Assembly (NCBI GenBank): GCA_030041545.1
Contig: JASHNQ010000022.1
Coordinates: 1-33,583 of the forward strand
Length of the DNA stretch: 33,583 nucleotides
Origin: a candidate division FCPU426 bacterium
Lineage (GTDB): Bacteria > Oederibacteriota > Muellerivitia > Muellerivitales > Muellerivitaceae
Reading direction: 5' to 3'
Of this stretch, positions 23,326 to 25,234 are shown piece after piece; the first letter of the stretch is position 1, and the number at the start of each line of letters is the position of its first letter. The notes beneath the pieces are model-generated. The model saw only the letters and a list, made by a program, of their open reading frames with translations, made no database searches and was not told where the DNA came from. A program made the position numbers and the translations under genes.

Positions 23326-23341
23326 AATTCCCAATCAGTTT

Positions 23342-23947
23342 TTAGTGAAGCGAATTAATTTTTTCTAATTCTCTTTTTAATTTTTCTAAGGATGGAGATA
23401 GCCTTAGTGCTTCGTTTATATCAAATTGATCAGTAAAAGCTGGTTGGTCCACTCGGGGCGAATATCTAAAACCGCTAATCATAATATCCGTCAAATATTG
23501 CTTTGCTCCCCGAATGGACTCTGGGTACATCGGAGGCTCAGCATCGTTCTTAATCCCTCTAAATCCACGTAGTGAAATAAGCGAGGCCAAGAACCACGCC
23601 TCATATTCTTTGTTCGCGATAGTCGCAAAAATCGGTACATCAATTTGAAATCCTTGCGCTCTTGCAAGTAGGCTAGGGCCCAAATCTTTGGGACAATCAT
23701 CATCGGCATCCACAAGAATCAAGATGCATCCGGGCGATTTTATTTTGTGGAAGGCAAATCTAAGCGCTCGTTCTAATTCCGAGTCTTTCGAAATCATGTT
23801 TCGAGGTATACGAATCGGTTTTGCTATCTCCGGAACATTAAATCCAAGTTGAATCATCATTCGTCGAATAAGGATAGGCACGGCTTCTACCTCGCCGTGG
23901 CCTTCGACGATAGGAACTATGTGCACGTTATCCGCCGTTCTAATCAC
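23342..23947 (-). CDS. DUF4276-family protein, predicted TOPRIM-like nuclease partner of the adjacent AAA ATPase
   Basis: The 201-residue protein matches the DUF4276 pattern: VPIVEGHGEVEAVPILIRRM at residues 11-30 with acidic Glu15 and Glu19, then CILILVDADDDCPKD at 74-88 with Asp80 and Asp82-84, and NKEYEAWFL at 112-120. A glutamate in the first strand and a DxD cluster after a later strand are what TOPRIM domains use to bind metal, and I recall DUF4276 being grouped with TOPRIM-like folds. Nuclease activity is an inference. The start is GTG 23947, overlapping the ATPase stop by eight bases, so the two are translationally coupled. Base composition is visibly more AT-rich than the flanking genes. 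No experimental function is known to me. Confidence 0.78.
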   Translation of the reverse strand: MIRTADNVHIVPIVEGHGEVEAVPILIRRMMIQLGFNVPEIAKPIRIPRNMISKDSELERALRFAFHKIKSPGCILILVDADDDCPKDLGPSLLARAQGFQIDVPIFATIANKEYEAWFLASLISLRGFRGIKNDAEPPMYPESIRGAKQYLTDIMISGFRYSPRVDQPAFTDQFDINEALRLSPSLEKLKRELEKINSLH

Positions 23948-25163
23948 TTTCCAACAAATCCAACTGCTTTACTGATTCAATGTACTTTTCTGTATTTGGT
24001 TCAAGTTGCCCCAAACGCAAAAGTTCTCCAACTGTATACAAGTTCTCTTGAACAGCTTTTACCGAAGCTTCGTCCACAGGTGCTATAACAGTCTCTCCAC
24101 CGCGATTAATAACTGCCAGAAGTGAATCTGCTGTAACTCCATCGTGGTCCAATAAATCAGGACTATGTGTTGTAACAACAAGTTGGGCATGGTATTGCCC
24201 TTCCAAAAGAGCATCCATTAGTTTTTGAGTTGCTCCTGGATGTATTGCTGCTTCGGGCTCTTCTATTCCAACAAGCGGAACCGACCCTTTGCCGTTGTTG
24301 GTTCCTGCTTGAAAGACTGCTACGAGAGCGCCAAGAGCCCTAAGAGTTCCATCCGACATATTTCCAGCGAGAAACCTCCAAGGGTTTTCTTCACCGGCAA
24401 CCTTTTGTCGAAACTCTAAAGTTTCTTTGGGCCCTAACGATTTGTGACCAATTTCCTCAATGCCTGGAATCACCGATTTCAAGTATTCAACAATCCTATC
24501 GAGACTATTTATATTTTGAACTTTAAGCCTCCTCACGACGGCAGCTATATTCTCTCCAGAACGCTTTAAAAGATCGCCGGGATCAGTGTCCTGTAAATCT
24601 TTCATTCGATCTGGATTCAAATTATAAAATCCCATTCGCGACAATTTTTCATAAACAAGGGAAAATTCCGGAAGGGCCGAAGCCAAGGACAAATAAAGTC
24701 TGTCTCGTTCAATCTTCAAAGGTAAATTTTTAAAAGAGCTATTTGCCAAAGAACCATCTTTGATTTCGTAAAAGGAGGGGGTGTTTCCAATAATATTTGT
24801 TGGTACTTTGCAAATTTCGTTTTGAATAGTAAATCCGCCATTTGGCAAAGCTCCAATTTTGAATCCATAAAAAGCTTTCCATCCATTTGGCAATTGAATA
24901 TTTAAGGCAATTCCAAAATTATTTGGATGGCCACTAGATTTACGTCGAACTTCGCTAATCCCTCCACGCTCTCTAAAAGCATGTTCAGGTGTAGTGCGAA
25001 GAGAGTCTGCTACAAATCTTAACGCATCTAAAAAATTACTTTTTCCGCTTCCATTGGGACCGACCAAAAGAGTAAAAGGCTTTATTTCGATTTGACAACG
25101 ACCGATACTTTTATAATTTTGAATTTTAACTTTAGTAATAAAGTTTTTCGGTTCTTCGCTCAT
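23940..25163 (-). CDS. AAA (SMC/OLD-like) ATPase, partner of DUF4276
   Basis: This is a 407-residue ATPase of the AAA_21/COG4637-like group, related to the ATPase half of OLD nucleases and to RecF/SMC heads. Motifs in order: an N-terminal FITKVKIQNYKSIGR strand, Walker A GPNGSGKSN (residues 35-43), ABC-like signature NMSDGTLRALG (268-278), Walker B VPLVGIEEPEAAIHPG (295-310) with tandem glutamates, and the H-loop TTHSPDLL with His333. No TOPRIM domain follows; that part seems to be supplied by the overlapping downstream gene. The ATG at 25163 has GAGG five bases upstream. The gene is AT-richer than its neighbours and sits 71 bases after prfB, consistent with acquisition. Confidence 0.85.
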   Translation of the reverse strand: MSEEPKNFITKVKIQNYKSIGRCQIEIKPFTLLVGPNGSGKSNFLDALRFVADSLRTTPEHAFRERGGISEVRRKSSGHPNNFGIALNIQLPNGWKAFYGFKIGALPNGGFTIQNEICKVPTNIIGNTPSFYEIKDGSLANSSFKNLPLKIERDRLYLSLASALPEFSLVYEKLSRMGFYNLNPDRMKDLQDTDPGDLLKRSGENIAAVVRRLKVQNINSLDRIVEYLKSVIPGIEEIGHKSLGPKETLEFRQKVAGEENPWRFLAGNMSDGTLRALGALVAVFQAGTNNGKGSVPLVGIEEPEAAIHPGATQKLMDALLEGQYHAQLVVTTHSPDLLDHDGVTADSLLAVINRGGETVIAPVDEASVKAVQENLYTVGELLRLGQLEPNTEKYIESVKQLDLLESD

Positions 25164-25178
25164 GGCGCCCTCATCAAC

Positions 25179-25212
25179 TAAACTAAATAATTTTGAAATT
25201 CATTTTAGTTTA
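25179..25212. repeat. AT-rich hairpin between prfB and the AAA ATPase
   Basis: A perfect 9-bp inverted repeat, TAAACTAAA (25179-25187) and its complement (25204-25212), encloses a 16-base AT-rich loop. It lies between the prfB stop and the ATPase start. No G+C in the stem and no T-run after it on the minus strand make a terminator unlikely. It could mark a cassette junction or bind a regulator. Confidence 0.45.
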
Positions 25213-25234
25213 AATGAAAAATTAAAAAAGCCAC

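Follow-up and report, generated by a model that had tools for sequence, protein, structure and literature searches.

Within the window, by which we mean the whole 33,583-nt stretch of DNA from a candidate division FCPU426 bacterium that was analysed, two overlapping genes occupy positions 23342-25163 of the minus strand and encode a 407-aa ATPase (HEC-01A) and a 201-aa DUF4276 protein (HEC-01B). A first-pass annotation of the same DNA, made from the sequence alone, had described this arrangement, and both open reading frames lie where it had placed them and overlap by 8 nt (Table 1). The overlap makes translational coupling of the two genes probable. The pair is flanked by the housekeeping genes prfB and lysS and, since its surroundings throughout the window consist of housekeeping genes only, this copy does not reside in a defence island.

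Table 1. Features of the HEC-01 cassette (positions in the window) and the evidence or conservation on which each rests
Feature	Position	Strand	Evidence or conservation
Low-GC insert of ~1.9 kb between prfB and lysS; site empty in relatives	23326..25234		GC, GC3, prfB-lysS adjacency in five relatives
HEC-01A, 407-aa predicted ABC/OLD-type ATPase, ATG start; probable sensor/regulator subunit	23940..25163	-	PADLOC, Pfam AAA_21, AF2 model
Walker A GPNGSGKS, residues 35-42 of HEC-01A	25038..25061	-	G35, N37, G40, K41, S42 invariant, n=51
ABC-type signature SDGT, residues 270-273 of HEC-01A	24345..24356	-	S270, G272, T273 invariant, n=51
Walker B and catalytic glutamates LVGIEEPE, residues 297-304 of HEC-01A	24252..24275	-	E301, E302, P303, E304 invariant, n=51
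H-loop His333 of HEC-01A	24165..24167	-	H in 40/51, Q in 11/51
Overlap (8 nt) of HEC-01A stop and HEC-01B GTG start	23940..23947	-	ORF coordinates
HEC-01B, 201-aa DUF4276 protein, TOPRIM-like, GTG start; probable nuclease effector	23342..23947	-	PADLOC, Pfam, AF2 model, hhalign
TOPRIM glutamate motif VEGHGE, residues 14-19 of HEC-01B	23891..23908	-	E15 78/81, E19 77/81; in register with OLD VEGxxE
TOPRIM DxD motif DADDD, residues 80-84 of HEC-01B	23696..23710	-	D80 81/81, D82 80/81; in register with OLD DxD; predicted strand end
EYEAW motif (ExEAW), residues 114-118 of HEC-01B, resembling RloB CFExW	23594..23608	-	E114, E116, A117, W118 invariant, n=81

The pair had been presented as a candidate defence system, but it is not an uncatalogued one: PADLOC-DB already holds both components as HEC-01. 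HEC-01A matches model PDLC04178 (2.5e-148; residues 1-401 on profile positions 1-391 of 399) and HEC-01B matches PDLC04196 (1.1e-63; residues 9-197 on positions 3-191 of 197), so that both are near-full-length matches, and the gene order, the overlap and the protein sizes are likewise those of the HEC-01 type. In Pfam, the ATPase is recognized by AAA_21 (98.4 bits, 1.1e-27) and also by AAA_15, and the smaller protein barely exceeds the cut-off for DUF4276 (30.7 bits against 30.2). HEC denotes a Hma-embedded candidate from a ‘guilt-by-embedding’ survey; where PMC12988326 and PMC11411939 cite that survey, several HECs are mentioned as active against phages, HEC-05 and HEC-06 by name, and the source of HEC-01 cited in PMC12988326 is a preprint by Payne et al. 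Unlike the type, the copy described here stands alone between prfB and lysS and is not embedded in Hma, embedding being the route by which the family was discovered and not a sequence criterion. A literature search yielded no mention of DUF4276 and, in titles and abstracts, no description of HEC-01. HEC-01 is thus a catalogued anti-phage candidate that is mechanistically uncharacterised, and this cassette exemplifies well a design that was already known.

The cassette was acquired horizontally at this locus. The GC content of the insert is 0.40, compared with 0.564 ± 0.025 in 1.9-kb windows, and GC3 is 0.30 and 0.38 in the two genes, as against 0.65-0.81 in their neighbours. In five relatives, two congeners and three further members of the family, prfB lies directly beside lysS, and in one of these empty-site congeners PrfB is 99% identical. 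No close homologue of HEC-01B occurs in the other 44 of the 45 genomes of the phylum, and across 28 relatives the best matches to HEC-01A are distant, at 25-26% identity. The absence of a close homologue, the empty sites and the deviant composition together indicate that the cassette was gained here. It is hardly credible, then, that the pair is native, inherited vertically and engaged in some housekeeping task near prfB and lysS, as its shared orientation with the neighbouring genes of a conserved cluster might suggest; vertical inheritance at prfB-lysS is refuted by the empty sites, and the composition also speaks against it. The first-pass annotation had named vertical inheritance without association with a defence island as one outcome that would tell against its proposal: the empty sites establish transfer, but there is indeed no island around this copy.

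As to how the cassette arrived, the window contains no tRNA gene as a mobile-element signature, the ends of the insert carry no convincing terminal repeats, only short AT-rich matches of 13-16 nt, and promoter-like sites are not more numerous than expected by chance. The prfB-lysS spacer of four relatives has a TATACT-type box in common, and a TAAACT-like version of it persists upstream of HEC-01A within 23326-25234. Because of this persistence, the cassette may have separated lysS from its promoter on insertion, and may be co-transcribed with that gene.

The larger protein has the complete set of nucleotide-binding motifs that had been noticed in its sequence. The key residues of Walker A, of the ABC-type signature and of Walker B are invariant in an alignment of 51 ATPases, with variation confined, in the first two, to positions 36, 38 and 39 of Walker A and to position 271 of the signature, which is either D or E. 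The H-loop that had also been claimed is present in this HEC-01A but, with glutamine in place of histidine in some members, is not a family-wide feature. In Foldseek searches the AF2 model (pLDDT 94.6) matched SMC heads, PtuA (from Septu and retron complexes) and GajA at 1e-12 to 1e-14, the matches to SMC heads and PtuA reaching 1e-14. Since the full-length model matches ATPase heads of this kind, there is no TOPRIM tail, as had been inferred from the sequence. The earlier label of AAA ATPase, on the other hand, has to be replaced: by its predicted structure, HEC-01A is an ATPase of the ABC/OLD/SMC-head type, not an AAA+ protein, an assignment that has been argued for such ATPases in general (PMC12839542).

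The relationship of HEC-01B to TOPRIM domains is well supported at the level of motifs and of profile-profile comparison. When the family alignment was compared by hhalign with 15 OLD-type TOPRIM domains, the probability was 91.3 (E 9.6e-7), with VEGxGE paired with VEGxxE and DADDD with DxD, and the likeness spanning residues 10-100 only; by comparison, ten other proteins of the window gave at most 0.3, 60 column-shuffled alignments at most 1.1 and a reversed alignment 0.4. The two motifs put forward earlier as a TOPRIM metal site, EGHGE and DADDD, are thereby supported as TOPRIM motifs, and both are conserved, but the equally conserved ExEAW motif had been overlooked. In all 81 DUF4276 proteins aligned, D80, E114, E116, A117, W118, R146, K149 and Y162 are invariant. 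The AF2 model (pLDDT 95.8) consists of alternating strands and helices, and E15 and D80 sit at the ends of strands 9-14 and 73-80, respectively. Its sole significant structural match was to an RloB-like protein among viral models (BFVD; Foldseek probability 1.00, E 1.8e-4, TM 0.56); RloB is the family of AbiLii and has been related to OLD TOPRIM by HHpred (PMC10440598). Searched against the PDB, the model found nothing below 0.001 and the sequence found no match. Members of the family also show weak Pfam matches, to RloB in 13 of the 81, to OLD-like_TOPRIM in three and to DUF3226 in two.

These data bear on the possibility that HEC-01B is not a nuclease but a TOPRIM-derived or Rossmann-like subunit that binds nucleic acids or processes nucleotides, within a complex that clamps DNA in the manner of SMC proteins and is driven by the ATPase. 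The PDB search with HEC-01B returned only generic Rossmann-like folds, HEC-01A is as similar to SMC heads as to PtuA, and a natural HEC-01B variant (locus L044, 7995-8603) has VGGYGD in place of VEGxGE, and hence no VEG glutamate, while keeping the equivalents of D80, D82, E114 and E116; judging from its sequence, that variant may be inactive or have an altered metal site. Against such a role stand the strict conservation of D80, E114 and E116 in 81 of 81 proteins, and of D82 in 80, and the in-register profile match to the TOPRIM nuclease domains of OLD proteins, so that we consider it quite improbable.

Scanning genome contigs with the HEC-01B alignment identified 179 relatives; the 80 retained for analysis come from about eight phyla (Pseudomonadota, Actinomycetota, Acidobacteriota, Planctomycetota, Chloroflexota, Myxococcota, Verrucomicrobiota and Rokuibacteriota), and scans of viral contigs found no relative. 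All 81 sequences of the resulting alignment are matched by the PADLOC HEC-01B model. The two genes belong together: a HEC-01A homologue lies immediately upstream of HEC-01B, on the same strand, in each of the 78 loci that could be evaluated, that is, those with the upstream side of the gene present, and the two genes overlap by 4 nt in 56 of these 78. In the HEC-01B tree, the protein from the window forms a long branch within a group of mixed phyla, a position of which we are unsure. The same genome carries a second pair of a divergent subfamily (PDLC04180 and PDLC04194; locus L003, 203-1351 and 1348-1962, and also L168, 7331-9090), whose ATPase is 22% identical to that of the window and which is also solitary, with gcvT on one side and, on the other, a small ORF and then a gene for a peptidyl-prolyl isomerase. 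One more pair (PDLC04182 and PDLC04205) turned up inside a control region (among L148-L167) that had been picked regardless of HEC-01, which suggests that HEC-01 is common and that several copies may be present per genome.

Elsewhere, the neighbours of HEC-01 point to an association with defence genes. The first-pass annotation had proposed that neighbourhood statistics would be informative, and the outcome agreed with its expectation: 118 ORFs flanking about 20 HEC-01 loci gave 176 PADLOC model matches at 1e-15, most prominently type I methyltransferases and specificity subunits, but also PD-T4-6 and mad2, whereas 118 control ORFs, from regions of the same set of genomes chosen regardless of HEC-01, gave 27, nearly all of them to the additional HEC-01 pair, generic ATPases and DinG. 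Given the mechanical choice of ORFs and the redundancy of model counts, this is a coarse test. One copy on a Streptomyces plasmid adjoins both a Fic toxin-antitoxin gene and a pair formed by a large ATPase and an ATP-dependent helicase in a Gabija-like layout (L004, 9741-13590).

The pair had been proposed as a split system of the OLD/PARIS kind. What holds is the general design, an ABC-type ATPase and a TOPRIM-like protein encoded by separate genes, together with its transfer and its defence neighbours elsewhere; the pair belongs to neither group. With PARIS (AriA and AriB, the latter DUF4435), HEC-01 has in common the split between an ABC ATPase, here a probable sensor, and a separate TOPRIM-type protein, here a probable effector, but HEC-01A matches AriA merely as a generic ATPase (5.8e-28), and the pair is not PARIS because its partner is DUF4276, with no match to DUF4435 or AriB; the genome contains no DUF4435 at all. 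The earlier view that the second component differs from that of PARIS was correct. With OLD nucleases and with GajA of Gabija, the cassette shares the type of ATPase, and its TOPRIM motifs align in register with those of the OLD-type C-terminal domains, but the ATPase and TOPRIM-like parts are here separate genes, which excludes an OLD/GajA fusion, and the GajB helicase is absent beside the pair, where prfB and lysS are found instead.

AbiL (the ATPase AbiLi and AbiLii, of the RloB family) is also a two-gene combination of an ATPase with a small TOPRIM-related protein. The RloB-like protein that HEC-01B matches structurally belongs on this side of the comparison, as does the common order of motifs, E..E, DxD and ExW, although hhalign aligned HEC-01B to a small RloB alignment only weakly (Prob 2), including the EYEAW part at this low probability. 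HEC-01A scores 1.5e-25 with the AbiLi model against 2.5e-148 with that of HEC-01A, and we reject membership in AbiL since HEC-01B of the window has no RloB or AbiLii match and its hhalign score with RloB is low. Septu and Septu-like retron effectors share the PtuA ATPase fold with HEC-01A, as indicated by Foldseek, but PtuB is an HNH nuclease whereas HEC-01B is a DUF4276 protein. HEC-01A is also distantly similar to MAD3; membership in MADS is rejected, as the score of 109.6 bits is far below the cut-off of 420 and no other MADS genes lie beside the pair.

Our preferred reading, to which we give a probability of about 0.72, is that the two genes of this horizontally acquired cassette make up an anti-phage system of split OLD/TOPRIM type. 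Its division of labour, with the ATPase as sensor and restrainer and the TOPRIM-like protein as effector, is drawn by analogy with PARIS, where sensing falls to AriA and AriB acts as a two-metal TOPRIM tRNase (PMC12409363), and with AbiL and related pairs, in which the ATPase neutralises a toxic TOPRIM protein (PMC10440598). HEC-01A, an ABC/OLD-type ATPase without a nuclease domain, would probably multimerise, keep HEC-01B inactive and respond to a cue of infection. Once released or activated, HEC-01B would probably cut nucleic acid, either tRNA or DNA, at a putative metal site formed by E15 and E19, D80 and D82, and probably E114 and E116. Cleavage would then halt or kill the cell and thereby stop the growth of the phage.

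The same analogy lends itself to another interpretation, namely that the two genes form a toxin-antitoxin or addiction module, maintained because it secures its own persistence, in which HEC-01A neutralises HEC-01B but is not dedicated to sensing phage. ATPase:TOPRIM_OLD pairs behave as antitoxin and toxin in E. coli, with neutralisation of the toxicity, and testing a related pair, likewise neutralised by its ATPase, against the BASEL phages yielded no hits (PMC10440598); moreover, the cassette is a solitary insertion among housekeeping genes, and the second, divergent pair is equally alone beside gcvT. It has to be set against this that HEC-01 has defence genes as neighbours in other genomes, that its catalogue name implies discovery inside Hma defence loci, and that a large and conserved ATPase would be costly as a mere antitoxin. 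We regard the addiction module as unlikely, and continue to favour an anti-phage system.

The extra invariant residues of DUF4276, ExEAW and the R, K and Y further on, raise the speculation that it is a separate lineage of TOPRIM effectors, which would differ from AriB, AbiLii and GajA both in the nuclease site and in the substrate, the latter being perhaps one particular tRNA; in that case HEC-01 would represent a widespread class of split-OLD defence with its own trigger. We offer this tentatively, as somewhat less than an even bet. What is usefully added to the existing catalogue entry is profile evidence, backed by controls, for a TOPRIM-like DUF4276, together with the structural match to an RloB-like protein and a list of residues. 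The controlled comparison ties an unexplained Pfam family to the TOPRIM effectors found in OLD-type defence systems, and residues E15, D80, D82, E114 and E116 make HEC-01 directly testable. The locus itself illustrates the entry of such a cassette into a bare housekeeping site, without a defence island. If the TOPRIM link is confirmed, the split ABC-ATPase/TOPRIM design known from PARIS and AbiL would extend to HEC-01.
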